From assembly GCF_032917945.1 (NCBI RefSeq), contig NZ_CP136624.1:7502001-7566000 (forward strand): a DNA stretch of 64,000 nucleotides, written 5' to 3'. The position numbers and the translations under genes are program-made. Of this stretch, positions 13,996-40,910 are shown one piece after another. The number at the start of each line of letters is the position of its first letter. The first letter of the stretch is position 1. Below the pieces are notes generated by a model. The model saw nothing but the letters and a program-made list of their open reading frames with translations. It did no database searches and was not told where the DNA came from. The DNA is from Bradyrhizobium sp. sBnM-33. GTDB taxonomy: Bacteria; Pseudomonadota; Alphaproteobacteria; Rhizobiales; Xanthobacteraceae.

Positions 13996-14216
13996 GACTT
14001 CGTTGTAAAAGTCTTTTTGGGGTGACGAACGAAAATTTTCAGGGGCGCTGACGCGTGTTGCACGTGGCGACGTGAGGGAACCACGTCGTTCCTCGGAAAA
14101 ACGACCACGGACCTGGCGTAGCGGCGTGATGTGGCTTCGCAACGTTACAGCTCTCTGAAAATCACCTTTCGCGAGATTTTCGGGATCGTTCGATTTTCGA
14201 CTTTTGCAACAAAATC
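13996..14216. mobile_element. MITE, divergent copy
   Basis: A 221-bp segment bounded by imperfect inverted ends (GACTTCGTTGTAAAAGTC and, reversed, GATTTTGTTGCAAAAGTC) and flanked by the direct repeat GGTC (13992-13995 and 14217-14220). The interior resembles the other three MITE copies in patches, including GTGAGGGA. The remainder of the 13868-14524 gap shows nothing recognisable apart from the start signals of the next gene. Confidence 0.65.
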
Positions 14217-14524
14217 GGTCATTTTCGGACTTCGGCGCTCTCCTAAACGATTTCCGATTTACTCCGAGGAACGGACATTCATCTCTCTCACAGCTCGCGC
14301 TGAGAGCGCCGCACAGATAGTGAACCAGCGGCGGTTTTTTGCCGGGAACCTTTTCTATCCAATCCCATCCAACGGGACGGCAACAAAGTGCCGATGTGAC
14401 TGGTAGGCGGACGCGCGCAAAGCCGACGGACCCGTTTGTGATGTCACCGGTCGTTGCCAAACTAGTCCAGCGCCCACACCCGCTGGAAGGGAATACTTTC
14501 GAACTATGCTCAAGAAGGTAACCA

Positions 14525-15085
14525 ATGGCACGACCTCTTTCGACTTCCATGACAAGACGAAACATTGTCACCGGGCTGGCGCTGGCCGCCGCCCCGGCGG
14601 CTTTGGCAGGAGCTGGCAACGCGTACGCGCAGACGCAGCAGACCAAGCCCGAAAAAACTCTGTATGAGCGGCTGGGCGGTGTTTTCGCCATCGCGGCAGT
14701 AGTTGATCACTTTAGCGATGCCGTCATGAAGAATCCCATCGTTGGCCGGAAATCCAAGAACCCGCAGCTGCGGCAATGGCACACCAAGAATCTGACAAGG
14801 CTGCCCGGTCTCAAGTTCATGCGCACGTTATGGGTCTGCGACGTTTCCGGCGGGCCTTTCCGGTTCAAGGCCACGAAGCCCGGGACGACGCCGCTTGGCC
14901 TTGAGGAGGCCCACCGCGAGCTCCGGATCTCCCCGGCAGAATTTGACGAGGTCGCAGCCGAACTCGCTCGGAGCCTGGATTTTGCTAAGGTTCCGAAGCG
15001 CGAGAAAGCCGAAGTCCTGGCAGCCTTCGCCGCCCACAAAGACGAGGTTACTGCCGGTTACCTCGCGCGCAGTAAGCGGGGCTGA
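14525..15085 (+). CDS. Tat-exported truncated hemoglobin (group I-like)
   Basis: 186 residues. A twin-arginine leader (MTRRNIVTGLALAAAPAAL) ends near AYAQ, predicting export of a folded cofactor-bearing protein. The mature part begins TLYERLGGVFAIAAVVDHF, a truncated-globin start, and carries a likely proximal histidine in EEAHRELRIS; RQWHTKNLTRL may hold the distal side. It may bind or detoxify O2/NO in the periplasm, which is inferred. AAGAAGGT upstream supports ATG 14525, though ATG 14549 directly before the RR motif would also work. Confidence 0.8.
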   Translation: MARPLSTSMTRRNIVTGLALAAAPAALAGAGNAYAQTQQTKPEKTLYERLGGVFAIAAVVDHFSDAVMKNPIVGRKSKNPQLRQWHTKNLTRLPGLKFMRTLWVCDVSGGPFRFKATKPGTTPLGLEEAHRELRISPAEFDEVAAELARSLDFAKVPKREKAEVLAAFAAHKDEVTAGYLARSKRG

Positions 15086-15258
15086 GGCATCCAGGTCTCC
15101 ACAAGCGATCCCACTCAGTCAAGGACGAGCGGGATTGTAGCTGCTTCGTAAGGTCCGCTTCGTGCGCAACAGCGTATCTCTGTTGGGGTGCACAGTGTAT
15201 CGGTATGTCTATCGAGGAACCGGCAGACGGGAAGCAACGTTTTGTCCCTGTCAATAGG

Positions 15259-16744
15259 CTAGCTGATTCACACATCTTTGAGGGTCTCCCAGGCGGAAGC
15301 CACGCCCAAGAAGTATTGGAGGCCATGCCTCATGGTGATGGGGCCGGGTTTGGTGCGAGGGTATCCATCCCATCCGCCGAGGCGAGCAATGATCCATGAG
15401 GCCCAAGCCAAGGTTTGCGGGCGATGTGGATTGCTTTGGAGTTTGGTTCTGCCTTCGTACTTGGTGGCCAGTGCGGCGAGCAGCTTGATCTGCTCTTTGT
15501 TGAACGCGTTGCTGGCAGGTTCGGCGCTGCGTCCGTCGCGAGCCTGAACCAGTTGCAGGATCACGACGGCAGCCTTGGCGGCGATCGCGGTGAGCTTGAG
15601 CAGCCGATCGGCGGTTTCGATCCGGCTGTCTTCGAGTTGCAGCCCCTGCGTTTTGATCAGGCGGAACAGCTGCTCGATAATCCAACGCTTTTTGTACCAG
15701 TTGACGATCTGCCAGGCAGACGCGACATCGTTGACGTCATGGGTCGTCAGCAGGTACCAGTGCAGCGGCTCGACGCCCGCTGGCGGATCGACTTCAACGA
15801 CCTCGACCAAAGCGAGTTCGACTGTCCGCGGTAAGTCGGCAGACGCGTTCTGCGGCCTTCTGAGGGTGACCCGACCGAACCGCAGCACCAGCTTGGCCTG
15901 TCGGGCGGGCCGATCGGCACGCGCCACAACGTCGATGGTGGCAGTGTCGACGACGGGCCAACTGCTGGCGGTGGCATACATGCTTGCACCGTCGGCCAGC
16001 ACGCGATCATGCATGCTCCGCGTCAACAGATGGAAGTTTGAGGCCGATACGCTCGCCCATTTGGCATAGATGTCGCCCTCGCGATCGTCGATCACCGTGA
16101 CCATCGTGGCCGCAGAGAGCACCTGCTTGGCTCGATGGGCCGTGCTGATCCAACGTTCCGACTCCTTCTGCTCCAGTGGCCGCTGATCGTGCGGCACCGT
16201 AACCCGGCCCTGGCGCGTCCAAATCTTCCCGCCTACCAGCCCCAGACAGGCGTCACTGGCGGCATCCACGGCGGCCATCGCATGCAACAGCAAGCCGTGG
16301 CTGTTCCCTTTGCCGATCTCACCCAGCCCGTGCCGACGCTCGGGTTGGGTCCTAAAGTTGATCTCGCTTGTATCCTGGATCGCCAGCACGTGCCGGCCGG
16401 CCGCCGCAACCGCCGTCTGTTCGCCCCAGCCTGCGAGCAGTGCTTCCAAGCTCACGTTCTCATTGGCGAGAAATCGGCCGTATCGGACTATCTTGGCCCG
16501 ATCACCATCCGCCGCTCGACGCAAGCACGAGCTGGCGCGCGTGACCATCCCTTCGAGCAGAGCCGCCCCCCTTTATCGAGACGGCCATCCCCGAACCGAC
16601 CAAGCCTGAATTGTTCGTTCAACATCTTGGCACCTCAATGGAATCGAAGTGCCAGATACAGAATCACAGCAGACCGTCGCTGCGGAAGGCCAAATCAAGA
16701 CATCGAGTCATTCCGTCGCAGCCGGCAATGTGTGCATCTGCTAG
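15259..16744 (-). mobile_element. IS4-family (Tn5-like) insertion sequence with 10-bp target duplication
   Basis: 1486 bp with imperfect terminal inverted repeats, CTAGCTGATTCACACAT at the left and CTAGCAGATGCACACAT (reversed) at the right, 15 of 17 matching. TGTCAATAGG flanks both sides (15249-15258, 16745-16754), a target duplication of a length usual for the IS4 family. The insertion lies 19 bp upstream of the next gene's start codon. The short gap 15086-15248 is therefore the likely original upstream DNA of that gene. Confidence 0.85.
15268..16625 (-). pseudogene. IS4-family transposase, frameshifted near the N-terminus
   Basis: From ATG 16625 the frame reads MLNEQFRLGRFGDGRLDKGG, a normal start for Tn5-like transposases. 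It loses frame in a run of six G residues; one more G would join it to GAALLEGMVTRASS and the remaining ~426 residues. The downstream part keeps DDE features: AIQDTSEINF, VIDDREGDIY and the YKKRWIIEQLFRLIKTQG signature with the catalytic Glu. The ATG at 16548 could start a product lacking 25 residues of the DNA-binding N-terminus. Slippage on the G-run might restore some full-length protein. Confidence 0.8.
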
Positions 16745-16763
16745 TGTCAATAGGGAGATCGTT

Positions 16764-16991
16764 ATGCGCTTCATTGTCCTCGTTCTAGTACTTTTGCTGA
16801 CTGAAACTTCGCTATCTTTTGCGCAGGGTCACATGGGCACGCCACAAGAGCAGCAGGCCTGCAGGCGAGATGCGCAGCGATTTTGCCGACAGCAACTTGG
16901 CAATGATGGAGCGGTTCAACAATGCTTGCGGCAGAACAGGGCCAGACTGAGCAAGAGCTGCCAAAAAGTATTTGCCAGCCACGGCATGTGA
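16764..16991 (+). CDS. small exported Cys-rich repeat protein
   Basis: 75 residues. Signal peptide MRFIVLVLVLLLTETSLSFA; the mature part has four cysteines in the pattern CRRDAQRFC...VQQCLRQNRARLSKSC, as in the 'cysteine rich repeat' proteins common in Bradyrhizobium. Probably a disulfide-bonded periplasmic protein of unknown role. GGGAGA lies directly before the ATG. The IS4 element ends 19 bp upstream, so its own promoter is separated by 1.5 kb and expression would depend on IS-borne or end-created signals. Confidence 0.75.
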   Translation: MRFIVLVLVLLLTETSLSFAQGHMGTPQEQQACRRDAQRFCRQQLGNDGAVQQCLRQNRARLSKSCQKVFASHGM

Positions 16992-17339
16992 GGCTCTTAA
17001 CGCCGGCTCGTTGCAACGCGTAAGATCTTTCCCGAAAACAGTAGAGCCGGGCGCCTCTGCGGACCGGCTGAGGCAAAGTTGGACGAATGAAGCGGGAACT
17101 CGCGATTGATCGCACTCGCCGTCAAACGTAACCGCTGGTTAATCTTCAAGCTCCAACGCAAGATGTTTCTGCGCCCGGTTTGATGCTTTCGCCCTGCCTG
17201 CGCCCCCAACCCTGTGAAGGTTAGAATCGGAGCGACAAGCGCCTTCAAGCACCTTACATTAATTGAGCATGCGCCCGCACGGGGAGCTGTAGGGGAGCCG
17301 GCAAGGCGGGACGGCGCGACAACCGCAACTCTTGTCCGA

Positions 17340-17422
17340 GAAGTCCCAGCACTCCTGCGGTGGTCGGCCCTACTCCCAACAGCGGACATCATGGCCAGCT
17401 CGCAGTCCGTCTGCGTTCGGCC
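17340..17422 (+). repeat. dispersed intergenic repeat, copy 5 (interrupted by MITE)
   Basis: CGGCCCTACTCCCAACAGCG (followed by GACATCATGGCC) is the repeat core. Its tail GGCC is split by a MITE and resumes as GGCCAATAGCAGACCTC at 17634. The rest of the 16992-17339 gap has no recognisable gene. Confidence 0.6.
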
Positions 17423-17633
17423 GATATTGTTGCAAAAGTCGATTTTCGCCGATGACCAAAATTCTGCGGGCCGTGGGCGCGACCTTCGTGTACAAGATGT
17501 GAGGGACCTCACGGCCTCACGCAAAATTCACAGGCGACTTCGGTAAAGGTTATACGAATCAGCGATCGCTCGCTGCTTAGCGTTGTCGCGAAAAATCTTG
17601 AGCCCTGCAACTTTCGACTTTTGCAACAATATC
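17423..17633. mobile_element. MITE with IS1182-like termini, copy at GGCC
   Basis: 211 bp bounded by GATATTGTTGCAAAAGTCGA and its near-perfect inverse, flanked by GGCC on both sides. It contains an internal palindrome GTGAGGGACCTCAC but no gene. About 90% alike by eye to the copies at 34862 and 40624. Confidence 0.85.
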
Positions 17634-17651
17634 GGCCAATAGCAGACCTCA

Positions 17652-17730
17652 GTGTCTACCGGGCCTCAGCCCGCTCTACCTCCAAAGCGGACATCACAGG
17701 CGCCAACTGGCAAGTCCGCTTAGGCCCGCT
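17652..17730 (+). repeat. dispersed intergenic repeat, partial copy 6
   Basis: CAGCCCGCTCTACCTCCAAA (followed by GCGGACATCAC) and a degenerate tail. It lies just downstream of the ftsZ-like gene. Confidence 0.6.
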
Positions 17731-17762
17731 TTTAAGCGAGCCGATTTGGTTCCTACGAGAAT

Positions 17763-18920
17763 TCAGTTAGCCTTGCGGCCCAGGAAGGCCGGGATATCGC
17801 AAACAACTTGCTCGATCGAATTGCGCACAGTGGAAAAGCGGCTGTATAAATTCGGCCGCGGTGCACTACTCTCGATCCGCTGGGGGCTGCGATGATTTTC
17901 CTTGCGCAGCCTGCTAGCGAGTTCCGTAAGTGAGCCCGTTGGTTGCGTCTGGCGCGTCGCACCAAGATTATCGATGCCGGTCGCTACCACCGACACGCGG
18001 ACAATACCTTGCAGGCTTTCATCGAAAGTGGCGCCGACGATGACGTTGGCGTCCTTATCGACCTCTTCGCGAATGCGGGTCGCGGCTTCGTCTACCTCGA
18101 ACAGCATAAGGTCCTTGCCGCCGGTGATGGAGATTATGAGGCCACTGGCGCGCTTGATCGACGGGTCATCGATCAATGGATTGGAAATTGCGGCCACAGC
18201 TGCATTGAGCACGCGCTTTGTACCGGAAGCCTCGCCCCTGCCCATCATGGCTTTGCCCTTCTCGCGCATTACGGTGAGAACGTCGGCAAAATCGAGATTG
18301 ATCAGGCCTTCCTTGACTACAAGGTCGCTAATGCAGGCCACACCGGAATAAAGCACTTGATCGGCCAGCACGAAGGCATCGGCGAAGGTGGTCTTCTCGT
18401 TGGCCACCCGGAAGAGGTTCTGGTTTGGGATGACCAGCAGAGTGTCCACCGCCCTGAGCAGTTCCGCGATGCCTGCTTCGGCAGAGCGCATGCGGCGCTG
18501 GCCCTCGAAGTGGAACGGCTTGGTGACTACACCGATGGTGAGAATGCCAAGCTCACGGGCGGTCTTGGCTATAACCGGCGCTGCCCCAGTGCCGGTACCG
18601 CCGCCCATGCCGGCAGTAACGAACACCATGTGTGCGCCGGTTAAATGATCGCGGATCGAATTGATTGCCTCTTCGGCCGCCGTGCGCCCCACTTCGGGCT
18701 GCGAGCCGGCACCAAGGCCTTGGGTGACTTGGGCGCCCATCTGGATGATCCGGTTGGCCCTTGACATGGCGAGCGCCTGTGCGTCGGTATTAGCGACGAT
18801 AAATTCGACGCCTTGCAGCTCAGACGCGATCATGTTGTTGACGGCATTGCCGCCAGCGCCGCCGACCCCAAACACGATAATGCGCGCCTTCATCTCGCTG
18901 ATATCGGCAATGCTGGTCAT
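17763..18920 (-). CDS. FtsZ paralogue (tubulin-like GTPase)
   Basis: 385 residues from ATG 18920, preceded by GGGAGAG. The GTPase core is complete: [14 protein letters not shown] (~16), the tubulin signature [10 protein letters not shown] (~108) and the T7 synergy loop NLDFADV. The linker is short (about 60 residues), and the end [11 protein letters not shown] resembles the conserved FtsZ C-terminal peptide that binds FtsA and ZipA-like partners. Rhizobial main FtsZ proteins are far longer (near 590), and no dcw genes (ftsA, ftsQ, ddl) are adjacent. It is therefore most likely a secondary FtsZ that modulates or competes with the main ring; role inferred. Confidence 0.88.
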
Positions 18921-18963
18921 TTTTTCTCTCCCGATTGCTCCGCTACGTCGGGGACACGCATGC

Positions 18964-19447
18964 TTACCCACGAGCAGCCTTGCGGTCTGCTGCCATTAAG
19001 TCCGCAGCTAGGTGCTCCGGGCGGGGTGCAGCTAGTCCGCGGCTGTCGGTCGAGCCATCACCAGCTCGGCCATCTTTCCGAAGAAAACCTTCGAGCCGCG
19101 CCGTCGCCTCCTTAGCTGCCGTAGCCTCGGCGGTCGCCTGTAGCACTTCAACCATCAGCCGATCGGCGCGCTCACGCTCGAAATCGGCCCGGTGACCCGC
19201 TGCTGTTGCTTCGAGCCGCGCGATCTCCCCTGCAATGCTAGATCTTTGCAGCTAGGACGACCTTGCCTGCTTCACGTGGTGGCCGACGCTTGTGCCGTAT
19301 TTCCGTGAGATCCACGCTCACCATTGCTTTGCCGTCATCTGAAAGTGAGCGCGGCAGCCGGAGCCGCTTGACAAGCGAACGAGCGGCATTAGGCGAGATT
19401 GTCAAGCGGGCGCCAAGTGCGGCATATGTCAGTGTTTCAACAGGCAT
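18964..19447 (-). pseudogene. frameshifted HTH/coiled-coil protein gene
   Basis: ATG 19447 (preceded by GGAGAAC) gives a helix-turn-helix-like start, TLTYAALGARLTISPNAARS with KRLRLPRSL, ending at a TAG at 19238-19240. Removing one T there continues the frame into IAGEIARLEATAAGHRADFE and a Glu/Arg/Ala coiled-coil ending near 18964. The combined product matches a ~150-residue type of DNA-binding coiled-coil protein that I recall from Bradyrhizobium. The first 69 residues alone could still be made. It lies just upstream of the ftsZ-like gene, same strand. Confidence 0.65.
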
Positions 19448-19458
19448 CGGCTGTTCTC

Positions 19459-19679
19459 CTGGAACGAACCGCGCGGTCTATTAACCGAAAGTTAAGTTGT
19501 GATGGTTAAGAGATCGTTAACAGTGGGCGGATTCCGCCCATTGAGCGTCCCGCGACCAGAATGGATGGTTTGCCTATCAGACTTCACCTCGGAAACGCGC
19601 CGGCGTCGTGGGACACGCCGAGCCAATCTCTATTGTCCGCCCTATGTCGACCGGCTGGTAGGAATGTCCGTCCCGGGTC
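19459..19679. repeat. 220-bp duplicated segment, copy 1
   Basis: About 220 bases starting CTGGAACGAACCGCGCGGTC and ending GGTAGGAATGTCCGTCCCGG recur at 52644-52874 with few differences. This copy is the upstream region of the gene starting at 19447. In both places it runs straight into a dispersed-repeat copy. Confidence 0.85.
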
Positions 19680-21555: not shown

Positions 21556-21638
21556 GATGCACCCCCGGGGCTCGGGGAAACTTAATGTTCATATAGCACA
21601 ATTGTGGACCAATGTCTGGCTATGCTGATCTCCGAAAT

Positions 21639-21742
21639 GGGTCAATCGCGTCGTCTTGCCCCTCCGCCAGCCACTTCCGGTCTACCCCGATCAACGGACA
21701 TCGCCACGCTGGCCCAGTTGGTCCGTTCCGTGCCAACAACGG
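21639..21742 (+). repeat. dispersed ~110-bp intergenic repeat, copy 8
   Basis: GGGTCAATCGCGTCGTCTTG...CCACTTCCGGTCTACCCCGA...GTCCGTTCCGTGCCAACAAC. The rest of the divergent gap 21556-22032 should hold promoters for both flanking cyclase genes, but no clear consensus was found. Confidence 0.85.
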
Positions 21743-22032
21743 AAGGAGCCTTCTCACTCGATCACCTCCTCAGCGAGCACGAGAAGTGCGGCCGGATCGT
21801 GAGGCTGAGCGCCGTTTTCTGGGGAGTCCTCCCAGGCTCGCTTCGGGGTGGTTCCCGGATTAAACGCGTCAGAAGCCAAAAAAACATGCTTCGCCCCAAG
21901 GGATGGAGTAAACTGGTTACCTCATTCTGGTGCGACGGGTTTGACCCCGAACGGCTCGACCGACAGCGCACAGCCAGCGTGGCGGCGGCCATCGCCAGTG
22001 GATGAGTGCGGCCAAGTGTGCGTGTGAACGCC

Positions 22033-27156: not shown

Positions 27157-27438
27157 GACGTTCCTCCGTGACCGTTCTTGCGAGGACCGAGTTCGCTCGA
27201 TCTGGCAACGATCTTATCCGACATCGTCGCCTTGGGACATGGTTCCGGATATCGGATAAGTACCTAGGCCCGGGCACCAGCGTCCTCATTTGATTGCCGG
27301 TGAAATCAAAGAACAACGCATTCGCGGGCGACGGTCCAGCCGTGGTTATATGCGCGGTACTGTCAGCGTTGATGGCATTTCTTGGGATTAGGCCTCGAAG
27401 CTCCTTCATTTCGATTTCCGCCCAATCGACGTCCGGTT

Positions 27439-27541
27439 CGGGTCAAAAGCGCCGTTCTGACTGAGCGCCGATGACTTCCGCTCTACCCCAATAAGCAGAC
27501 GATCCCAGTGTCAGTCGGCACTTCGCATTTGTGCCAACAGG
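27439..27541 (+). repeat. dispersed ~110-bp intergenic repeat, copy 10
   Basis: GGGTCAAAAGCGCCGTTCTG...GACTTCCGCTCTACCCCAAT...GCATTTGTGCCAACAGG. No gene is evident elsewhere in the 27157-27699 gap. Confidence 0.8.
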
Positions 27542-27699
27542 AGACTCACGCAGCGCAGCAATTACCAGCTTTATTCAATCACCTGGTCGGCGCGCAGTAG
27601 GAATGATTCTGGTATCATGAGGCCGAGCGCCTTGGCGGCTTTGGGGTTTGATGATCAGCACCGAACTTGCACGGCTGGATGGCCGATGCATCGGCGCGC

Positions 27700-29052
27700 T
27701 CACCTTACGAGTTCATTTGGAAGAGCCCGAAACATAAGCCACTCGTTCGGCACACCTCTCAGTCTCTGTGGGCCGCGCTCCTCGAATACCAGGCCGGAGC
27801 CGGCCACTAGATCACGCACCGTCTGCGAAACTAGCACTTCACCCGGCGCGGCAAGGCTGGCAACGCGCGCGCCAATGTGCACTGCGATTCCGGCGAGGTC
27901 CTTGCCGACAAGCTCGCATTCGCCGGTGTGCAGGCCACAGCGCACCTCCAGACCGAGCGAACGCACGGTATCACGGATCGCGCCGGCACAGCGGATCGCT
28001 CGCGCTGGCCCGTCGAAGGCGGCGAGCAAGCCGTCGCCCGAAGTGTTGACCTCACGTCCCCGGTAATGCTGCAGAACCTCGCGAACCTTTGCATAGAATG
28101 CCTCAAGTAATTCACGCCAGGCATTGTCGCCAAGCGCTGCGGCGCGCTCTGTTGAGCCCACGATATCGGCAAACAGCACCGTAGCGAGCACGCGTTCCGG
28201 CTCGTACACATGGCGCACGCCGGTCAAAAAGACCTCGACTTCATCTAGCAGCGCGTCGCGGTCGCCTACGAGGTAACTATGGTCCACGCCAACAAGCTCG
28301 ATAAGCTTCGAACCCGAAATGTGCTCCGCCATGTAGCGTGCGTTCGCAACGTCGATCGCGCGGTCCGCCGCGCGGTGCAGGATGAGCGTTGGCACCCGAA
28401 TGGCAGGCAGCACGTGCCGCACGTCGATTTCGCGGTTCATCTTCATAATCGAGATGGCCGCGCCCGGACTTGCCGATGCGCGGAAATAGGCAGCCCGGCG
28501 CTCGGAAGCCTCGGGGTCGCCGGCGAGGCTCGGCGCATACATTGTGACAGCTATGCTTTGCGGCGTCCCCCAGTGGTGTTCGAAGTCGTCAAACACGCGC
28601 GCCCATTGCTCGTCCTTCCACCCAAACGGATAGTCCGGCGCCCAGGAGCGCTTGCCGTAGGAGCCGTACAGCACAAGGGCCGACGTGCGCGCAGGGTACG
28701 TCGCGGCATAGAGCAGCGACATCGGTCCACCCTCAGACACTCCGAACAGCGCCGCCCGCTCGCACCCGACTGCATCAAGGATTGCTTGAACGTCATGCAT
28801 GCGCTGCTCAAGCGTGAAGATCTGTGAGCCCCGGTCGGACATGCCGGTGCCACGTTTGTCGAAAAGGATAACGCGACAGAACGAGGCGAGGCGCCGGAAG
28901 AATGCGCGGTGGTCGGGTGATTCCCAGATCGCTTCGATGTTCGAAACGAAACCCGGAACGAACAGCAAGTCGAGCGAACCCTCGCCGAAGACCTGATAGG
29001 CAATGTGAACGTCGTCGCTCTTCAGGTAGTGGGTTTTGGGTAGACCGTCCAT
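27700..29052 (-). CDS. alpha/beta hydrolase - degenerate class III cyclase fusion
   Basis: 450 residues from ATG 29052, preceded by GGGGGTGCAGG. The N-terminal alpha/beta hydrolase (~1-275) has oxyanion region FVPGFVSNIE, nucleophile elbow FGVSEGG, an acid in HRAADRAID and histidine in VGVDHSYL. The C-terminal cyclase domain (~285-445) keeps both metal aspartates (FADIVGST, TSGDGLLAAF). The adenine lysine position is Asn (REVNTSGDG) and the usual Asn of NxxxR is His (VHIGAR). Cyclase activity is therefore doubtful; the domain may only bind nucleotide. The order is the reverse of the fusion at 2073. Similar proteins occur in Bradyrhizobium and mycobacteria. Confidence 0.85.
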   Translation of the reverse strand: MDGLPKTHYLKSDDVHIAYQVFGEGSLDLLFVPGFVSNIEAIWESPDHRAFFRRLASFCRVILFDKRGTGMSDRGSQIFTLEQRMHDVQAILDAVGCERAALFGVSEGGPMSLLYAATYPARTSALVLYGSYGKRSWAPDYPFGWKDEQWARVFDDFEHHWGTPQSIAVTMYAPSLAGDPEASERRAAYFRASASPGAAISIMKMNREIDVRHVLPAIRVPTLILHRAADRAIDVANARYMAEHISGSKLIELVGVDHSYLVGDRDALLDEVEVFLTGVRHVYEPERVLATVLFADIVGSTERAAALGDNAWRELLEAFYAKVREVLQHYRGREVNTSGDGLLAAFDGPARAIRCAGAIRDTVRSLGLEVRCGLHTGECELVGKDLAGIAVHIGARVASLAAPGEVLVSQTVRDLVAGSGLVFEERGPQRLRGVPNEWLMFRALPNELVR

Positions 29053-29217
29053 CCTGCACCCCCGTAGGTGAAGTGCGGGCAACTCACCGCATGTTGGCCA
29101 GAATTCCCGCCCTGATGTTATACAAAACATGCCAATCGTGCCATGGTCCCTCGGCACTTGGAGCAGCACAGAGGACGCGAATCTGCATCAAGTTTTCGCG
29201 CGCCCGAATGACCGGTT

Positions 29218-29315: not shown

Positions 29316-30805
29316 GATTCCGTTGAAGAAGTCGGCCCGCGAGCGAGGCGAGCCGCAAATGCGGCACAGCCGACCGCTTCTCAGGCCGGATTTGGCTGCG
29401 GCATTGGGACCAGCTTGGCTAGTTTCCGGAGGTTCTGGGCGGTTGCTGCAAGGAGGAACTCGTCGCGAGCCCCGTTTGGTCCACGTAATCGCAGTCGGTC
29501 GAGCTTGAGAATGCGCTTGAGGTGAGCGAACAACATTTCGACCTTCTTACGTAGCCGTCGCGATGCTCGACCTTCCCAGGATTTAGCAATCGCCCGCGCC
29601 ATGTCGCGGGCTCTCTCATGGATCGAGCGAGGCACCTTTCGAGCAGGCGTGTTCGGGCAGCAGTGTGGCCTCAAGGCGCAGGCGTCACAGTCAGCCTTGC
29701 TCGCTCGATAAAGCAACGTCTCGCCATCATTCACACGTGTCCCTGTTGTGGTCAGCGTCTTGCCGCCAGGACAGATATAGACGTCGCTGACTGGATCGTA
29801 GTTGAAGTCCTCCCGTGTGAAGGTCCCATCCTTGCGCGCTGATTTGTCGAACACGGTCACATGCGGCTCGATGCCGTGCTCATCGACCAGCCAGCCCAGC
29901 ATGTCGGCTGAACCATAGGCGCTGTCACCGAGAAGCCTGGACGGGTGAAGACCGAAGTTCTTTGCGGTCCGCTCGATCATGCGCTTGGCAGCGAGAACTT
30001 CTGCCTGCCGGATCGCTGTGGTCGGCTCAACGTCGACAATGATCGCATTTTCCACATCGATCAGATAGTTCGTGGAGTAGGCAAAGAAAGCCTGTCCGCC
30101 ATGGGCACCGGTCCAGCGCGCGGCAGGATCAGCCGGTGAGATGAACTTGGGGACGATCTCGGTCGCGGCCCCAAACGCCGCATCGTCCAGGACAGCTAGA
30201 TACTCGTCGACGGCACGGCTTGCGGCTTTTGGCGGCAACCCCTTTTCGCCCTCGACGCCGTTCTGCCGGTTAGCATCGGCCTTGATCAGGCTAGCATCGA
30301 CCGCAAAGCCTTCTCCGCCAACCAGACCCTCGTCGATGCAGCGGCGCAAGACGTCTTCGAACAGCCGTCGCAGCAGATCACTATCGCGGAAGCGGCCATG
30401 TCGGTTCTTTGAGAAGGTCGAATGATCGGGCACGTCACCATCGAGCCCAAGGCGGCAGAACCAGCGGTATGCCAGGTTGAGGTGAACCTCTTCGCACAGG
30501 CGCCGCTCCGAGCGGATGCCGAAGCAGTAACCGACCAACAGCATCCGGATCATCAGCTCGGGCGCGATCGAGGGCCGCCCGATCGTGCTGTAGAAGGGGG
30601 ATAGCTCTCGCCTTAACCCATCGAGGTCCACGAACCTGTCGATCGATCGCAACAAATGATCGGCCGGAACGTGCCGCTCGAGCGAAAACTCATAGAACAA
30701 CGCGACCTGCTCAACTCGCTGATGTCCCATCATGATTCAGTCCTCTCGCAACGACTGAATCAGCGAACATCAACCAGCGCAACCGAAGACTTTTTCAACA
30801 CAATC
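29316..30805 (-). mobile_element. IS1182-family insertion sequence, copy 1
   Basis: 1490 bp, termini GATTGTGTTGAAAAAGTC (inner, right end as drawn) and GATTCCGTTGAAGAAGTC. Flanks are GGCC on the left and GACC on the right, so unlike copies 2 and 3 the flanks are not identical. It differs from copies 2 and 3 by at least one silent base in the transposase gene. Inverted relative to copy 2. Confidence 0.9.
29381..30733 (-). CDS. IS1182-family transposase
   Basis: 450 residues, identical in protein sequence to those at 31959 and 47755. The N-terminal DUF772-type domain reads PSIAPELMIRMLLVGYCFGI and LAYRWFCRLGLDGDVPDHST. DDE catalytic features follow: FAVDASLIKADAN, LGDSAYGSADML and, near the end, RLRKKVEMLFAHLKRIL with the acidic residue. 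CDACALRPHCC is a zinc-binding-like Cys cluster typical of this family. Full length, so presumed active. Cut-and-paste or copy-out movement of the element follows from the family. Confidence 0.93.
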   Translation of the reverse strand: MMGHQRVEQVALFYEFSLERHVPADHLLRSIDRFVDLDGLRRELSPFYSTIGRPSIAPELMIRMLLVGYCFGIRSERRLCEEVHLNLAYRWFCRLGLDGDVPDHSTFSKNRHGRFRDSDLLRRLFEDVLRRCIDEGLVGGEGFAVDASLIKADANRQNGVEGEKGLPPKAASRAVDEYLAVLDDAAFGAATEIVPKFISPADPAARWTGAHGGQAFFAYSTNYLIDVENAIIVDVEPTTAIRQAEVLAAKRMIERTAKNFGLHPSRLLGDSAYGSADMLGWLVDEHGIEPHVTVFDKSARKDGTFTREDFNYDPVSDVYICPGGKTLTTTGTRVNDGETLLYRASKADCDACALRPHCCPNTPARKVPRSIHERARDMARAIAKSWEGRASRRLRKKVEMLFAHLKRILKLDRLRLRGPNGARDEFLLAATAQNLRKLAKLVPMPQPNPA

Positions 30806-30840: not shown

Positions 30841-30897
30841 ACTTGTTAAGTGATGTGTCTATGGTGACTGTTGTGCAGGAAGACCGAGGGCAGGAAC

Positions 30898-31854: not shown

Positions 31855-31886
31855 TCAATCGACGCCCGTAATGTCCCCTTGTGGCC

Positions 31887-33376
31887 GATTGTGTTGAAAA
31901 AGTCTTCGGTTGCGCTGGTTGATGTTCGCTGATTCAGTCGTTGCGAGAGGACTGAATCATGATGGGACATCAGCGAGTTGAGCAGGTCGCGTTGTTCTAT
32001 GAGTTTTCGCTCGAGCGGCACGTTCCGGCCGATCATTTGTTGCGATCGATCGACAGGTTCGTGGACCTCGATGGGTTAAGGCGAGAGCTATCCCCCTTCT
32101 ACAGCACGATCGGGCGGCCCTCGATCGCGCCCGAGCTGATGATCCGGATGCTGTTGGTCGGTTACTGCTTCGGCATCCGCTCGGAGCGGCGCCTGTGCGA
32201 AGAGGTTCACCTCAACCTGGCATACCGCTGGTTCTGCCGCCTTGGGCTCGATGGTGACGTGCCCGATCATTCGACCTTCTCAAAGAACCGACATGGCCGC
32301 TTCCGCGATAGTGATCTGCTGCGACGGCTGTTCGAAGACGTCTTGCGCCGCTGCATCGACGAGGGTCTGGTTGGCGGAGAAGGCTTTGCGGTCGATGCTA
32401 GCCTGATCAAGGCCGATGCTAACCGGCAGAACGGCGTCGAGGGCGAAAAGGGGTTGCCGCCAAAAGCCGCAAGCCGTGCCGTCGACGAGTATCTAGCTGT
32501 CCTGGACGATGCGGCGTTTGGGGCCGCGACCGAGATCGTCCCCAAGTTCATCTCACCGGCTGATCCTGCCGCGCGCTGGACCGGTGCCCATGGCGGACAG
32601 GCTTTCTTTGCCTACTCCACGAACTATCTGATCGATGTGGAAAATGCGATCATTGTCGACGTTGAGCCGACCACAGCGATCCGGCAGGCAGAAGTTCTCG
32701 CTGCCAAGCGCATGATCGAGCGGACCGCAAAGAACTTCGGTCTTCACCCGTCCAGGCTTCTCGGTGACAGCGCCTATGGTTCAGCCGACATGCTGGGCTG
32801 GCTGGTCGATGAGCACGGCATCGAGCCGCATGTGACCGTGTTCGACAAATCAGCGCGCAAGGATGGGACCTTCACACGGGAGGACTTCAACTACGATCCA
32901 GTCAGCGACGTCTATATCTGTCCTGGCGGCAAGACGCTGACCACAACAGGGACGCGTGTGAATGATGGCGAGACGTTGCTTTATCGAGCGAGCAAGGCTG
33001 ACTGTGACGCCTGCGCCTTGAGGCCACACTGCTGCCCGAACACGCCTGCTCGAAAGGTGCCTCGCTCGATCCATGAGAGAGCCCGCGACATGGCGCGGGC
33101 GATTGCTAAATCCTGGGAAGGTCGAGCATCGCGACGGCTACGTAAGAAGGTCGAAATGTTGTTCGCTCACCTCAAGCGCATTCTCAAGCTCGACCGACTG
33201 CGATTACGTGGACCAAACGGGGCTCGCGACGAGTTCCTCCTTGCAGCAACCGCCCAGAACCTCCGGAAACTAGCCAAGCTGGTCCCAATGCCGCAGCCAA
33301 ATCCGGCCTGAGAAGCGGTCGGCTGTGCCGCATTTGCGGCTCGCCTCGCTCGCGGGCCGACTTCTTCAACGGAATC
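31887..33376 (+). mobile_element. IS1182-family insertion sequence, copy 2
   Basis: 1490 bp between two GGCC tetramers (31883-31886 and 33377-33380). The outer context TTGTGGCC...GGCCACAAGCCGAC rebuilds a dispersed-repeat tail when the element is removed, supporting GGCC as the target duplication. Confidence 0.9.
31959..33311 (+). CDS. IS1182-family transposase
   Basis: Same 450-residue protein as at 29381 (see there for motifs). The start ATG is doubled (MMGHQ...), and the coding region starts 72 bp inside the element. Identity with the other copies implies recent transposition or gene conversion. Confidence 0.93.
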   Translation: MMGHQRVEQVALFYEFSLERHVPADHLLRSIDRFVDLDGLRRELSPFYSTIGRPSIAPELMIRMLLVGYCFGIRSERRLCEEVHLNLAYRWFCRLGLDGDVPDHSTFSKNRHGRFRDSDLLRRLFEDVLRRCIDEGLVGGEGFAVDASLIKADANRQNGVEGEKGLPPKAASRAVDEYLAVLDDAAFGAATEIVPKFISPADPAARWTGAHGGQAFFAYSTNYLIDVENAIIVDVEPTTAIRQAEVLAAKRMIERTAKNFGLHPSRLLGDSAYGSADMLGWLVDEHGIEPHVTVFDKSARKDGTFTREDFNYDPVSDVYICPGGKTLTTTGTRVNDGETLLYRASKADCDACALRPHCCPNTPARKVPRSIHERARDMARAIAKSWEGRASRRLRKKVEMLFAHLKRILKLDRLRLRGPNGARDEFLLAATAQNLRKLAKLVPMPQPNPA

Positions 33377-33458
33377 GGCCACAAGCCGACCTGTCGCGGT
33401 GCAGTTTCTGAAGTTCGCTAAGGGCCACAAACCGAAACGCTGTCTTGCCACCCGCGGC

Positions 33459-34736
33459 CTACCGAACCTGCGCTCGCAGCGCATTCCAAAGAGCAAACAG
33501 CTCAGCGGTCGCGGTCTGCTCACCGCCGAGCGCGGTCTGCACGAGAACAAGCTTTAGGTCCGGATCGACAAAGACAAATTGTCCGCGGAGGCCCTGGAGC
33601 GAGAAACGCCTGGTGTCTGCGGAATACCAGACTTGATAACCGTACTTCGCCAGGGGTGAGTCTGTGGGAAGCGCATCAGCAGCCGATGCCGTGAGCCAGT
33701 CTGCAGGCACGATATGCTTTCCATTCCAATTGCCGTGATTGGCCAGCATCAGGCCGAGCCGCGCCCAATCGCGCAGCACCGCGTTGACATAGGCAAACGT
33801 GATTTCCTGCCCGGTCGCATCGACGATCCACGTCGCATCAGCTTCCGCCCCCATTGGCTGCCAGAGCTTTTCGGCGGCATAGTCGGACACGGTTCGCTCG
33901 GTGGCAGCCGCGAGCACTAGGCCCAGTACCAGCGATTCAGCGGACGAATAAGAAAAACGCACGCCGGGCGGGGAGAGACGGGTATTGAACTGCTTCACCG
34001 CGGAGAGGCTGCCGGGAGAGCCCAGCTCGATCGTGAGACGGGCCAGCTTGTTAATATCGCTGGATCTGCTGCCGTAATCCTCCGAGAATGCGACACCTGA
34101 AGACATCAGCAGCAAAGCCTTGATCGGTGTCCGGCCGTATTCGGTGTCCTTCAGGTCAGGGACATAGCTTCCCGCGAGATCATCGACGGACCGGATAGCG
34201 CCCTCCTTAACGGCGATCCCGATTAGCAGCGAAAGCACGGTCTTCGCCATCGAGAAGGACGCTAGGCGATCCCTATCGGTGCGTCCGTACTGGTAACGCT
34301 CGACTAGGATCGTATTGTCTTTCGCGATCAATAGGCCGGTGACCGGTTGGCGATTGAGGTAGTCGTCGAGCGTCAGCTTGAGTCCGGCGAAGGCATATTG
34401 AATGACGGGTTCGTGCGCTGCGCGAGCCAGCGGGATTGACTGTTTCGGAGCACTGATAGTGCGTGCAGGAAACAGCGTGTCATAGCGGCTTAGCGCGCCT
34501 ACCCGGCAGCGCTTTTGGTCAACATAGTCGATACCCTTGCAATTCGGATATCCGTCCTTCTGGCCAAATTCGTCTGCAGTCGGTCCATCCGCACGAAAGC
34601 GGGGACTGGCAGCTTGTGGTGCCGGTTCTGCTTGGGCGAAGGCGCGATGCGAATTCAGCGTGAGCACATCCAAAAGGAGGGGAAATGCCACCGCACTGGC
34701 GACGCAAAGTAGCTGTTTGAAGCTTCGTCCAGTCAT
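33459..34736 (-). CDS. exported beta-lactamase-family serine hydrolase
   Basis: 425 residues from ATG 34736; the longer frame upstream is MITE sequence and is rejected. A signal peptide (LLCVASAVAFPLLLDVLTL) is followed by the serine hydrolase domain. The nucleophile motif is SMAK in LASFSMAKTVLSLL, the Tyr motif is FSYSSAESLVLG, and a GLRGQFVFVDP strand occupies the C-terminal active-site edge. The N-terminal ~110 residues with two Cys (PNCKGID, KRCRVG) are typical of 6-aminohexanoate-dimer-hydrolase-like members. Possible amidase or esterase of the periplasm. It ends about 80 bp from IS1182 copy 2. Confidence 0.83.
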   Translation of the reverse strand: MTGRSFKQLLCVASAVAFPLLLDVLTLNSHRAFAQAEPAPQAASPRFRADGPTADEFGQKDGYPNCKGIDYVDQKRCRVGALSRYDTLFPARTISAPKQSIPLARAAHEPVIQYAFAGLKLTLDDYLNRQPVTGLLIAKDNTILVERYQYGRTDRDRLASFSMAKTVLSLLIGIAVKEGAIRSVDDLAGSYVPDLKDTEYGRTPIKALLLMSSGVAFSEDYGSRSSDINKLARLTIELGSPGSLSAVKQFNTRLSPPGVRFSYSSAESLVLGLVLAAATERTVSDYAAEKLWQPMGAEADATWIVDATGQEITFAYVNAVLRDWARLGLMLANHGNWNGKHIVPADWLTASAADALPTDSPLAKYGYQVWYSADTRRFSLQGLRGQFVFVDPDLKLVLVQTALGGEQTATAELFALWNALRAQVR

Positions 34737-34805
34737 TGAGAGAGCACCCAAAGCAAATGAAGCTAGGGAAGATGATAATTGACCCTCATGCGTTAGCCAA
34801 TGTCG

Positions 34806-35145
34806 GCTTGGGGTCATCAACTGACCTCCGGCGCCGGACGCGCTTGGTCCGCTCTGCCATCGATAGTGTTGCAAAAGTCGATTTTCGCCGATGACCAAAA
34901 TTCTGCGGGCAGTGGGCGCGGCATTCGTGTACAAGATGTGAGGGACCTCACGACCTCACGCAAAATTCACAGGCGACGTCGGTAACGCGATTGAGGTCAT
35001 ACGAATCAGCGATCGCTCGCTACTTAGTGTTTTCGCGAAAATCTTTAGCCCTGCAACTTTGGACTTTTGCAACAGTATCCCATCAACTACGGACATCGGC
35101 GAAATGCGCGGGCGAGTCTGTTTCGTGCCAATCGGCGACATACCA
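34806..35145 (+). repeat. dispersed ~110-bp intergenic repeat, copy 12, split by MITE
   Basis: The first half reads GGCTTGGGGTCATCAACTGA...GGTCCGCTCTGCCATC. The second half resumes at 35080 as CCATCAACTACGGACATCGG...GTTTCGTGCCAATCGGCGACAT. Removing the MITE and one CCATC restores the repeat. From 35146 to 35564 no gene is evident; this should contain the promoter of the cyclase gene at 35565. Confidence 0.8.
34862..35079. mobile_element. MITE with IS1182-like termini, inside a dispersed repeat
   Basis: 218 bp, termini GATAGTGTTGCAAAAGTCGA and (reversed) GATACTGTTGCAAAAGTCCA, flanked by the 5-bp duplication CCATC (34857-34861, 35080-35084). No gene inside. Confidence 0.9.
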
Positions 35146-35564
35146 TTGTTGCCCAAAACAAGAGGCCCCAACTGAGGCGGCATTTTCTGTCAGAGAACCT
35201 GACGGTATGCCCCGGATAGACGGCTGTCGGACATTCAAAAAATGTCACTTTCCTTCCAAGAGTATACTTGCATTCGCTGGCACAGTTGCCGAGCTTTCGC
35301 CTTCGTCGGTAGAAGCGAACGGAGCGACGGTGGCACTGAATCCGGGGTCGATAACTGGAGCATTCAGTCTGCACTCGTAACACTTTCGCCCGAAGCGCTG
35401 AATAGCACTTGGTCAAGGAGCGTTTCAGCGCGGGGCGCTATCGCCTCTAGATGCCCTCGGCTACACGTTCACGGCGCGCTGAAATTTCCCAGCGCCTGTC
35501 GTGAAATTTTGGGGTAGACTGAAGGTCTTGGTACTCTGCGGAGGAATCCGGCCAGGAGGCGCCC

Positions 35565-38500: not shown

Positions 38501-38903
38501 GATCCTCGGCCACCTCGCGGTCACAACCGAGGATCCGGTTGAACTTCAAACGGCGCTGACGGAAGGCGAGGATATCCTTCGCAAAGGTGCGGTGAGCCAC
38601 AATCATTTGTGGTTCTTCCGGTACGCGATCGACGCATCGCTGCACTCTCAGGATTGGGACGGCGCGGAGCGCTATAGTGCTGCCCTCGAGGATTTTACGC
38701 GGTCAGAGCCGCTACCCTTGGCCAACTTCTTCGTTCGATACGGACGCACTGTTTGCGCACATGGTCGGGGTCGTCCCGAACAGGAGACGACATGGAAGCT
38801 TGGGGACCTGCTGGTCGAAGCCGAGCGCCTAGGCATCGGTCCTGCGCTTGGGGCCCTCGCGTTATTGCAACGGGCCCGTCGCCAGCAAGAAAATTTGACG
38901 TGA
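35565..38903 (+). CDS. SAM domain - class III nucleotidyl cyclase - STAND ATPase - TPR protein
   Basis: 1112 residues; AGGAGGC directly precedes ATG 35565. SAM domain 1-60 (MNVAAWLHGLGLGQYEQAF). The cyclase (~88-255) has FADIAGYT, the lysine in TVDKHIGDCVMAVF and VNLASRL, so all catalytic positions are kept. STAND ATPase: P-loop GEAGIGKT (~308), Walker B LLLAIEDLHW (~435). From ~680 a long TPR-like region runs to the end (e.g. LEARALGGLGDAEYARGRMA). Its cyclase and ATPase are more distant from those at 2073 and 22033 than these are from each other. Probable cytoplasmic cAMP-producing signal integrator; stimulus unknown. Confidence 0.88.
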   Translation: MNVAAWLHGLGLGQYEQAFRENDIDASVLARLTADDLIGIGVASVGHRRKLLTAIAGLRDGPTPTPLPVPSAPAATSGVASPLPEAERRQVTVLFADIAGYTKLADELDAEEVHALLGSFFDLADASVVDHGGTVDKHIGDCVMAVFGAPVAYGNDPERCVRAALDIGSRMPLVAADLGRPIGVHIGIASGEVMATGTGSARHVEYTVTGESVNLASRLKDKAPTGEIFISDSVYRALAERVDCSEVGELAIKGLAKPVRAWRLRAFREPARSSRQAFVGRHRVLRELEAALVRCRNTLRGRTIYIRGEAGIGKTRLLEQFRTMAEGENFACHSGLVLDFGMGSGQDAIRSLVRSLLGLSGESSQEEIAVAAAEKTIADGMLADERRVYLNDLLNVPQPTELRTLYDAMDNPARNRGKRATVAELVTHASGHRPLLLAIEDLHWADQMTLDHLANLAETVAGCPALLVMTSRLERDLLHEIWGPTIAGQPIVTIDLGPLQPSEANGLAEAYLGALGELAQRCVERADGNPLFLEQLLRHAEESAEGNVPGSIRSLVQARLDRLALPDKRALQAASVLGQRFTAEALAALLDQPGWNCAGLVRHLLVRPQGDHFLFAHALIQEGVYDTLLRSRRRELHRQAADWFRSRDLMLCAQHLDRGDDDGAPRAYLEAAGAQAAEYRTERALRLVERGVILARNRADLSALHLLRGEILHDLGSISESIAAFEQALAVADVDIERCRAWLGLAAGLRVTDRFDEAFAMLDKAATAAIDDLAAERARIHHLRGNLCFPLGRLVECLHEHERALDCARIASSPELEARALGGLGDAEYARGRMASAHRHFSRCVELSRASGAGRIEVANLSMVAHTQVYLNDFSEALATSQMAVELAARVGHHRAEIIAHYAACNVFRTTGEFARVKIHAERALVLARQLGAKRFEAVSLNDLAMVARAEASSAEAMDLLHRALMISRETGVSFVGPWILGHLAVTTEDPVELQTALTEGEDILRKGAVSHNHLWFFRYAIDASLHSQDWDGAERYSAALEDFTRSEPLPLANFFVRYGRTVCAHGRGRPEQETTWKLGDLLVEAERLGIGPALGALALLQRARRQQENLT

Positions 38904-39064
38904 ATGTAGACGGAGTTTTTAGCGGAGGTCCGTTGCGCATCAAGAGACGTCATTTCTGCGATGACGTCCGCTGATCCCTGGTTTGCTGAGCAACATCGGA
39001 AGCCCAACAATGGGAGCAACCTCAGGCCTCATCGAACGATCATCGTGTGAAAGAGGAGGAGATC

Positions 39065-40450
39065 ATGCAAGCCATGGCCACTGAAGCCTTCATCGGCAAC
39101 ATGCGCGACCCCGTCATCAGGCGAACGGACGCCGACTATGACGCCGTACGCAGCCTCTACAACGGGATGATCGATAAGAGTCCGGAAATGATTGCGCGAT
39201 GCGCCGACGTCGCTGACGTTGTCACCGCCGTAAATTTTGCAAGGCAGAACGATCTTAAGGTTGCGATCCGCGGAGGCGGACACAACGGGCCGGGCCTTGG
39301 CAGTGTCGATGACGGGCTGATGATCGACATGTCGATGATGAAGGGCGTGCGGGTCGATCCCACCGCTCGCACTGTCCGCGTTGGTCCCGGCTGCACGCAG
39401 GGCGATGTCGACCACGCTACGCACATGTCTACGGGCTCGCAGTGCCGGCGGGTATCGTGTCGACGACCGGGATCGCCGGCCTCACCCTCGGCGGCGGCAC
39501 CGGATACCTCACCCGCAAGTATGGCCTCACCAGCGACAATCTGCTCGAGGCGGATGTCGTGCTCGCCGATGGTCGCATTGTCACCGCCAATAAATCTGAG
39601 AACGCTGACCTCTACTGGGGCCTGCGCGGCGGTGGCGGCAATTTTGGCATCGTCACAAGCTTCCTGTTCCAGGCCCATCCGGTGAACATGGTCTATGCCG
39701 GTCCAATCTTCTGGGATCTCAAAGATGCCCGGACCGTCATGCAGACGTACCGGGTTCCTGCCTGGCGCCCCCGAGGAGCTCGGGGCCTTTGTCGGGTTGA
39801 AGACCGTTCCGCCGGTAGACCCGTTCCCGGCTGAGCATCAGGGTAAGCGCGCCTGCGCCATCATCGCCTGCTACAATGGTCCGACAGAAGACGGCCAGGC
39901 GGTCATGGCCAAGTTGCTCGCTGAACTGCCCCCGCCGTTGTTCAACTGGATGGGCGAAATGCCTTATCCGGCTCTCCAGTCCATGTTCGATCCGTTCTTT
40001 CCAAAAGGCCTGCAATGGTACTGGCGCGGCGATTTCGTGAAAGAACTGACCGACGAAGCGATTGACGCCCATATCGCCCAAGCACAGAAACTGCCGAGCT
40101 CGCTCTCGCTCATGCATCTTTATCCGATCGACGGCGCCGTCCGTCGCATTGGCAAGAGCGACACTGCCTGGAATACGCGCGACGCGACCTGGTCGATGGT
40201 CATCGCCGGCATCGATCCCAATCCGCAAAAGGCGGGCGAAATCACCCGCTGGACCAAAGGCTATTGGGAGGCCGTGCATCCATACTCGGCTGACGGTGGT
40301 TATGTGAATTTCATGATGGACGATGGGGACGACAGTAGGCTCAAAGCAACATATGGCGACAACTACGATCGTCTTGTTGCATTGAAAGCCAAATACGACC
40401 CCACGAACTTCTTCAGCGTCAACCAGAACATCAAGCCTATGCACTCGTAG
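39065..40450 (+). pseudogene. FAD-linked (BBE-type) oxidoreductase with two compensating frameshifts
   Basis: ATG 39065 follows GAGGAGGAG. The FAD domain has AIRGGGHNGPGLG with the His used for covalent flavin, then breaks near 39424, where CACA looks like a CA duplication (frame shifts by +2). The next frame carries [20 protein letters not shown] and ends near 39750, where about two bases are missing. The original frame then resumes to the BBE C-terminus (DPTNFFSVNQNIKP). Intact it would be ~461 residues. The second flavin-linking Cys of the family is Ser (GLTSDN). Unless these are sequence errors the gene is dead. Confidence 0.8.
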
Positions 40451-40571
40451 ACGGTGGCTGCGCGGTTCAAGCGTGCCAAAGAGTCTTGTCGGAGCGTTCT
40501 TTCGTTTCATGAAACGAAGGAACGCTCTGGCCATCATTTGCGTCCGCCGCTCTTGCCGTCGACTTCCGCTC

Positions 40572-40910
40572 CGGGTCAGAATCAGAAGTGATCCAGGCCG
40601 AATGGCCTGTCCGTACTACCCTCGATAGTGTTTGCAAAAGTCGATTTTCGCCGATGACCAAAATTCTGCGGGCAGTGGGCGCGGCATTCGTGTACAAGAT
40701 GTGAGGGGACCTCACGACCTCACGCAAAATTCACAGGCGACGTCGGTAACGCGATTGAGGTCATACGAATCAGCGATCGCTCGCTGCTTAGTGTTTTCGA
40801 GAAAAATCTTTAGCCCTGCAACTTTCGACTTTTCCAACAGTATCCCCTCAAGAGCGGACATCGTCGGACCGCCCAGGCATGTCAGTTTCGTGCCAATGAC
40901 AGACATCGCC
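40572..40910 (+). repeat. dispersed ~110-bp intergenic repeat, copy 13, split by MITE
   Basis: CGGGTCAGAATCAGAAGTGA...CCTGTCCGTACTACCCTC, then after the MITE CCCTCAAGAGCGGACATCGT...GTTTCGTGCCAATGACAGACAT. The stretch 40911-41248 has no gene I can support other than the leader of the acetamidase. Confidence 0.8.
40624..40844. mobile_element. MITE with IS1182-like termini, inside a dispersed repeat
   Basis: 221 bp starting GATAGTGTTTGCAAAAGTCG, ending with the inverse, flanked by the duplication CCCTC (40619-40623, 40845-40849). Inserted at the same position of the repeat as the copy at 34862. Confidence 0.9.

Follow-up and report, generated by a model that had tools for sequence, protein, structure and literature searches.

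MITEs with IS1182-like ends at palindromic target sites in Bradyrhizobium sp. sBnM-33

The four copies and their IS1182-family relatives

The DNA analysed here (the window) is a stretch of 64,000 nucleotides of Bradyrhizobium sp. sBnM-33 (assembly GCF_032917945.1, contig NZ_CP136624.1, positions 7,502,001 to 7,566,000 of the forward strand). It contains four copies of a miniature inverted-repeat transposable element (MITE), named here by their first positions, together with insertion sequences (ISs) of the IS1182 family and dispersed palindromic repeats (Table 1). The MITEs, with inverted ends of the form GATNNTGTTGCAAAAGTC, lie exactly where the initial annotation had placed them, and the direct repeats reported next to them (GGTC, GGCC, CCATC and CCCTC) are all exact. 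We interpret them, as that annotation did, as non-autonomous IS1182-family elements because of their ends, their short target duplications, their lack of coding sequence and, above all, the palindrome centres which MITEs and IS1182 elements have in common as targets. We put at about 85% the probability that IS1182 transposases mobilise them in trans and target palindromes strictly. The ends, the duplications, the target, the unoccupied sites and the autonomous relatives with matching ends and target are directly established.

The description of the four copies as one family holds in so far as all have IS1182-like inverted ends, but they fall into two subfamilies, with 17423, 34862 and 40624 in one and 13996 in the other. 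A match of 15 of 18 bases had been claimed between the MITE ends and the IS of the window; the ends agree with the left end of this IS at 14-16 and with its right end at 13-14 of 18 positions, the left end of 40624 being omitted for its one extra base. The 18-mer IS end (up to three mismatches) occurs 12 times in the window against 0.05 by chance, and the inner 12-mer GTTGCAAAAGTC (up to two mismatches) 16 times, where 100 shuffles gave 4.6 on average and never more than 10. Neither stop counts nor domain searches support a coding function: 32 diverse MITEs have on average 1.7 to 2.6 stops per frame and element, 1 to 5 of the 32 are stop-free in a given frame, and Pfam gave no match for four open reading frames (ORFs) crossing window copies. 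A beta-lactamase-like ORF (33459-34934, minus strand, TTG start) extends 73 bp into MITE 34862; its domain match (residues 199-465) falls outside the MITE. Small, without a transposase gene and present in many copies, the elements have the general characters of MITEs.

The 9.18-Mb genome contains at least 26 MITE copies and one fragment. A BLAST search with one copy led to 15 places and the end motif raised the set to 24 copies; two later-found copies and the fragment enter no tally. Four of the copies in this genome are 97-100% alike, which suggests recent activity. A scan of other genomes, one per species, for GTTGCAAAAGTC-N(165-195)-GACTTTTGCAAC, a gap range which restricts the detectable lengths, recovered 85 elements in 84 stretches. 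Exactly 219 bp is the length of 56 of these 85 (range 209-227 bp, compared with 211-221 bp in the window), which is striking given a median identity of 62% among 105 MITE copies. Bradyrhizobium accounts for the majority of titles among the 80 of 84 stretches listed, accompanied by Xanthobacteraceae, Hyphomicrobiales, Alphaproteobacteria and Pseudolabrys and by a few metagenome bins labelled Rhizobium, Acidobacteriales, Bryobacterales, Gammaproteobacteria or Verrucomicrobia, for which misbinning is possible. The four window copies probably represent an old MITE family of Bradyrhizobium and related bacteria that has been active recently, has its own distinctive body and measures about 219 bp in total.

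The window IS is assigned to the IS1182 family by NCBIfam NF033551 (425 bits, cut-off 270) and is also just over the threshold of one IS5 model (141.8 vs 140). Twelve 1490-bp copies with an identical protein occur in the genome, seven of them between exact 4-bp repeats. With another IS1182 transposase as query, 80 of 98 genomes of the genus were matched. Among 26 IS1182 loci examined, a set outside which loci L200-L203 stand, 22 have both ends; 16 of the 22 are flanked by an exact repeat and two of the other six lie at contig edges. The tree of the 22 transposases has three groups: clade A (8 rows), with ends GATTTTGTTGCAAAAGTC or one to two changes from it, a 4-bp repeat in six and no exact repeat in two; clade B (2 rows), with ends GATTGTGTTGCAAAACTC (one end differs by one base) and a 5-bp repeat in both; and clade C (12 rows, including the window IS), with ends TTGAAAAA or TTGAAGAA, a 4-bp repeat in nine and no exact repeat in three. 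One clade B row comes from the sBnM-33 genome itself and has an open transposase frame of 484 amino acids.

The initial annotation had compared the MITEs with the window IS, and here the family stands while the particular element does not. The window IS, a clade C element with the end TTGAAAAAGTC, is not the best match, since clade A elements of relatives are identical at 18/18 positions to three of the eight MITE ends in the window, namely the right end of 13996 and both ends of 17423, whose sequence GATATTGTTGCAAAAGTC is that of one clade A end. Clade C carries TTGAAAAAG at the position where MITEs have TTGCAAAAG. The 12-mer (up to one mismatch) has 94 matches in the genome against 31 in the control; the unpaired places inspected among these 94 could be put down to copies of the MITE, to one of its fragments or to chance, and another IS family with better-matching ends was not found among them.

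Target duplications and the palindromic target

Together with the 24 copies of the sBnM-33 genome, the 85 elements make a set of 109, of which 92 are usable for a duplication test; one at a contig edge, two with flanks common to another element and 14 without the GA..TC end were dropped. Exact repeats are present at 69 of the 92 (42 with 4 bp and 27 with 5 bp), whereas re-paired flanks give 9.5 on average and 17 of 92 at most. Short duplications therefore occur at most copies, contrary to the possibility, raised at the outset, that they would be absent from most copies outside the window. Tallied by hand, the 24 copies divide into six with 5 bp, six with 4 bp, five without an exact repeat and seven in which an IS1111-type element cuts one of the ends.

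Position 5 of the MITE ends varies with the duplication class. In all 27 five-bp insertions T is absent from this position at both ends, compared with its presence at one or both ends in 35 of 42 four-bp insertions (35 of 43 with locus L007 added, one of the 14 dropped elements). Positions 4-5 are the same at both ends of one MITE in 44 of 92 copies, the shuffle mean being 21 and the maximum 35 (2000 shuffles).

MITEs and IS1182 elements are inserted at the centre of degenerate palindromes of about ATGTCCGCTTT-n-AAAGCGGACAT. The joined flanks of both duplication classes contain the half-site ATGTCCGCTtt, the GTC of which begins 10 bp outside the duplicated bases, and the flanks of the 12 clade C copies yield a palindrome consensus that matches the MITE targets. 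Weight matrices trained on 47 four-bp sites (seven of them of ISs) and 25 five-bp sites assign 12 bits or more to 46 unoccupied-type sites of the window but to no site when the window is reversed; two of the 46, at 14208 and 33620 (the latter in a coding ORF), look spurious. At a threshold of 7.4 bits, the score of the weakest training site, the 5-bp matrix has 30 matches in the window and five in its reverse; in 84 other loci, 164 sites reach 15 bits, against one when reversed. The sites are regularly spaced: 17 pairs in the window are 44-47 bp apart (0.1 by random placement, at most three in 5000 trials), 37 pairs in the other loci are 46 bp apart, and removal of MITEs 34862 and 40624 brings the palindromes on either side to 45.5 bp from the centre of the duplication.

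A dispersed perfect palindrome was considered as the target and rejected. The pattern GTCCGCTN{8,16}AGCGGAC has two matches in the genome, the same number as its control, a 28-mer with up to three mismatches is found nowhere in the genome, and arms with up to three mismatches give 16 window matches, a number that shuffled arms can also reach (mean 8, maximum 22). Nor is a hairpin as such favoured as the recognised feature. Complementarity between the arms of the same site (0.46 and 0.50) and between arms of different sites (0.48 and 0.53) both exceed that at random positions (0.26); because the arms of one site are no more complementary than those across sites, recognition of a conserved half-site sequence, rather than of a hairpin of any sequence, fits best.

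Dispersed units, unoccupied sites and an IS1111-type element

Many of the target palindromes belong to dispersed intergenic repeats of about 96 bp, in which they are spaced 45.5 bp apart. A strict form of the 5-type core occurs 33 times in the genome, and its control has no match. The uninterrupted unit of the window has a near-copy with other flanks in the relative G039 (contig C109), and the unit that contains MITE 34862 is present, nearly identical and uninterrupted, at four more places in two relatives (G057 and G039), where the flanks differ and diverge from the palindrome cores onward. Near-identical bodies at unrelated loci make the unit look mobile, as if dispersed on its own, and no clear target duplication was seen around its copies. 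Such repeats lie in the window at 1778-1883, 12341-12446, 21616-21744, 27417-27545, 44448-44576, 46711-46839, 49731-49814 and other places.

The search for empty sites in relatives, recommended in the initial annotation, was successful for MITE 34862: G057 and G039 have the unit with a single CCATC and no MITE. In Bradyrhizobium sp. sGM-13 (locus L118), the CCCTC of 40624 holds a MITE of another subfamily in opposite orientation (170 identities, 48 mismatches and 5 gaps), between flanks that are 93% alike over about 50-60 bp. Two independent insertions at one CCCTC are the simplest reading, and both the MITE-free sites and the oppositely oriented MITE at the same 5 bp support transposition. 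The place of the IS at 31887-33376 has no IS in G039, but it is not a clean empty site because the right palindrome half is the same and the left half different.

The ends of MITEs and IS1182 elements are themselves used by another element. A 31-base element end is found at nine places and adjoins TGTTGCAAAA at all nine (one with a changed base), its partners being seven MITEs, one IS1182 sibling and one IS1182-like end that was judged by similarity only. The opposite element end is GATNNTGTT in four of the nine copies and truncated or different in the others. The transposase has the DEDD domains PF01548 (61 bits) and PF02371 (80.5 bits), both over their cut-offs, and is of the IS110 type. Subterminal inverted repeats recognised by eye (TAATTCCGGG and CCCGGAATTA, one close to each end) and a longer non-coding stretch downstream agree with the IS1111 type as defined in the accessible text of PMC11187229. 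The target parts TTGCAACA and AACAGT appear by eye to recur in this downstream region, though on the same strand, where a guide RNA (seekRNA) would be expected to match both strands of the target. Among 30 IS110-type loci, the junction with a MITE or IS1182 end is present in two, one in the sBnM-33 genome and one in a relative with 94% protein identity, and absent from 28. A similar junction exists at a MITE of Bradyrhizobium sp. URHD0069.

Other features of the window include an FtsZ-family protein of 402 amino acids adjoining MITE 17423 (17763-18971, minus strand), a different transposase of the DDE_Tnp_1 type (15268-16548, minus strand, 426 amino acids) and three adenylate/guanylate cyclase-domain proteins with SAM, AAA, GAF or alpha/beta-hydrolase domains (1992-5288, 12503-13867 and 27700-29169).

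Table 1. Mobile and repetitive features; positions are those of the window except in the last row.
Feature	Position	Strand	Remarks
MITE, 4-bp class	13996..14216	+	221 bp; GGTC at 13992-13995 and 14217-14220; ends GACTTCGTTGTAAAAGTC and GATTTTGTTGCAAAAGTC
MITE, 4-bp class	17423..17633	+	211 bp; GGCC at 17419-17422 and 17634-17637; both ends GATATTGTTGCAAAAGTC
IS1182-family IS, clade C, 1490 bp	29316..30805	-	flanks GGTC and GGCC, not identical
IS1182-family IS, clade C	31887..33376	+	GGCC duplicated
About 96-bp unit (GGGTC...TGCCA)	34811..35130		central 5-type palindrome interrupted by MITE 34862
MITE, 5-bp class	34862..35079	+	218 bp; CCATC at 34857-34861 and 35080-35084; MITE-free site in relatives
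About 96-bp unit	40573..40895		interrupted by MITE 40624
MITE, 5-bp class	40624..40844	+	221 bp; CCCTC at 40619-40623 and 40845-40849; extra T in left end
Four consecutive palindromes, 45-45.5 bp apart	45397..45536		4-, 4-, 5- and 4-type
About 96-bp unit without insertion	46734..46830		5-type palindrome 46780-46784, 4-type cores at ends
IS1182-family IS, clade C	47683..49172	+	GGCC duplicated
IS1111-type element ends (examples from the own genome, G000:C1)	1406307-1406337, 6284864-6284894, 6904117-6904147		loci L059, L061 and L062

Origin and mobility of the elements

We suggest that the transposases of full-length IS1182 elements would bind the MITEs by their ends and place them in the middle of a degenerate palindrome, the half-site of which (about ATGTCCGCTTT) is the same on both sides. 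Duplications of 4 bp in "4-type" palindromes would fit clade A (or C) and those of 5 bp in "5-type" palindromes clade B; we consider this assignment of clades A and B to the two duplication classes reasonably probable. The half-sites of the two classes, once aligned, suggest that their spacing sets the length of the duplication. As helper of the 5-bp class, clade B is proposed for its duplication length and its target rather than for its ends, which fit those of 34862 no better than the left end of the window IS does.

Several observations weigh against this interpretation. No exact repeat is present at 23 of the 92 usable copies, although 17 of these nearly match, and 8 of 43 four-bp insertions (L007, read by eye, among them) violate the rule for position 5; the Fisher value of 2.6e-12 for the association of position 5 with duplication class overstates it, as the copies are related and less independent than the value implies. 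The ends of 34862 agree with clade B at 14-16 of 18 positions, with the left end of the window IS at 15-16 and with clade A at 16-17. No intact clade A copy was seen in the sBnM-33 genome, where the one A-like copy found is frameshifted and has one end cut by the IS1111-type element. A hand tally of 59 other genomes of the genus points both ways: in favour of the interpretation, strong IS1182 matches are found in 9 of 16 genomes with MITE matches (two of the 16 MITE matches are short and weak) against 7 of 43 without; against it, the remaining 7 of 16 MITE-bearing genomes have no strong IS1182 match, though draft assemblies may hide ISs. The MITE bodies have no clear similarity to ISs beyond their ends: among the 30 BLAST matches listed, none indicates an internal-deletion derivative, an origin known for some MITEs, as there are end matches of 24-41 nt only, plus one internal match of 28 nt at E 0.006.

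The 12-copy clade C element of the window is a candidate for the helper of all MITE copies, as the comparison in the initial annotation would suggest; it is the sole IS1182 element present in 12 copies with an identical protein, shares the palindrome target and the 4-bp duplications (exact in 7/12), and has a left end that matches the MITE ends at 14-16 of 18 positions. We nevertheless regard this role as unlikely: clade A ends fit better, up to 18/18, the TTGAAAAAG of clade C differs from the TTGCAAAAG of the MITEs, and exact repeats at clade C elements are never 5 bp long, in contrast to those of 27 of 69 MITE insertions. Still less probable is that the MITE spreads solely by being carried along with the unit of about 96 bp, or through homologous recombination among repeats, rather than by transposing itself. 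Near-identical units at unrelated loci do imply that the units spread somehow, and 5 of the 24 own-genome copies lack an exact target repeat in the hand tally, but the same unit is found with and without the MITE, two MITE subfamilies entered one unit site in opposite orientations, exact target repeats flank 69 of 92 copies, and 4-bp insertions occur outside unit centres.

Selection could maintain the MITE body because it serves some purpose itself, whether as structured RNA or as a DNA spacer for transposition, and this would be compatible with mobilisation by IS1182 transposases. The exact length of 219 bp in 56 of 85 elements despite the median identity of 62% (105-copy set), a conserved central block near GTGAGGGACC and a fold of 34862 that is better than that of shuffled sequences (z -3.7 and -3.1) would favour it. 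However, the consensus fold consists mostly of the paired ends (17 of 24 pairs), and paired ends alone improve the folding of single copies. Conserved RNA structure in the body was not found beyond the ends, and no Rfam family reached its gathering score in the window; five loci gave one sub-threshold match (isrG, E 0.021), which lies outside the MITE. We consider such a function improbable.

IS1182-family MITEs with the partner ISMac2 are known from Methanosarcina acetivorans (PMC3852290) and are likewise short, non-autonomous and provided with IS1182 ends. According to the available text they are 160 and 169 bp long, occur in 14 and 7 copies, and one has a 4-bp direct repeat; they belong to another domain and have other sequences, and that text gives neither a palindrome target nor two duplication classes. 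Inverted repeats are also the target of the IS1182-family element IS1272 of Staphylococcus (PMC5678879, which refers to Siguier et al. on certain IS1182 members that target palindromes). As far as the accessible parts of that paper describe it, IS1272 replaced its target inverted repeat without duplication and used other target sequences, unlike the Bradyrhizobium MITEs, at which the two arms are retained, with a duplication of 4 or 5 bp and a conserved half-site sequence. ISPse1 of Paracoccus, an alphaproteobacterial IS1182 element of 1653 bp with 16-bp ends and a 4-bp duplication, differs in that neither a MITE nor a palindrome target is reported in the text available (PMC3281130).

For the IS1111-type element, a parallel is provided by IS4321 and IS5075, two IS1111-family elements directed at Tn21-family ends according to a title cited in PMC11187229, whereas the element described here uses IS1182 and MITE ends. 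The GTAG- and CGTC-tagged repetitive extragenic palindromes of Bradyrhizobium (PMC3733652) are likewise short intergenic palindromes of the same genus; the main text of that paper has no occurrence of the GTCCGC motif, its accessible passages mention neither the 45.5-bp spacing nor a unit of about 96 bp, and the two kinds of repeats are set apart by description only. RIME is a further possible known repeat of this kind. In the open-access literature, with most subscription journals outside its scope, neither the MITE family nor the 96-bp unit was found. To judge from the accessible parts of the papers, IS1182-family MITEs (PMC3852290) and palindrome targeting by the family (PMC5678879) are already in print; what is new, as far as the literature covered extends, is the existence of two duplication classes, the use of ordered palindrome repeats as a target and the presence of an IS1111-type element in the ends.

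Taken jointly, and tentatively, the observations may reflect three nested mobile layers: a gene-less unit of about 96 bp that is mobile by itself, the IS1182 clades with their MITEs, and an RNA-guided IS1111 element. In this arrangement the ends of the unit would be half-sites of its own target, so that every insertion would create two palindromes and add the one at the middle of the unit as a third. These palindromes would serve two IS1182 clades, together with their MITEs, as separate landing sites; the transposase would read the half-sites, the spacing of which would lead to the 4- or 5-bp duplication, and the RNA-guided IS1111 element would recognise the ends of both IS1182 elements and MITEs.

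The finding would tie a MITE family widespread in Bradyrhizobium to particular transposase clades. The elements may offer a natural series for studying the recognition of palindromic targets by a DDE transposase and the determinants of its duplication length. The dispersed palindrome repeat would represent a landing platform for other mobile DNA, joined by an IS1111 element specialised on IS1182-type ends, and the ends and the target may be used by annotators to mark elements that have no genes.

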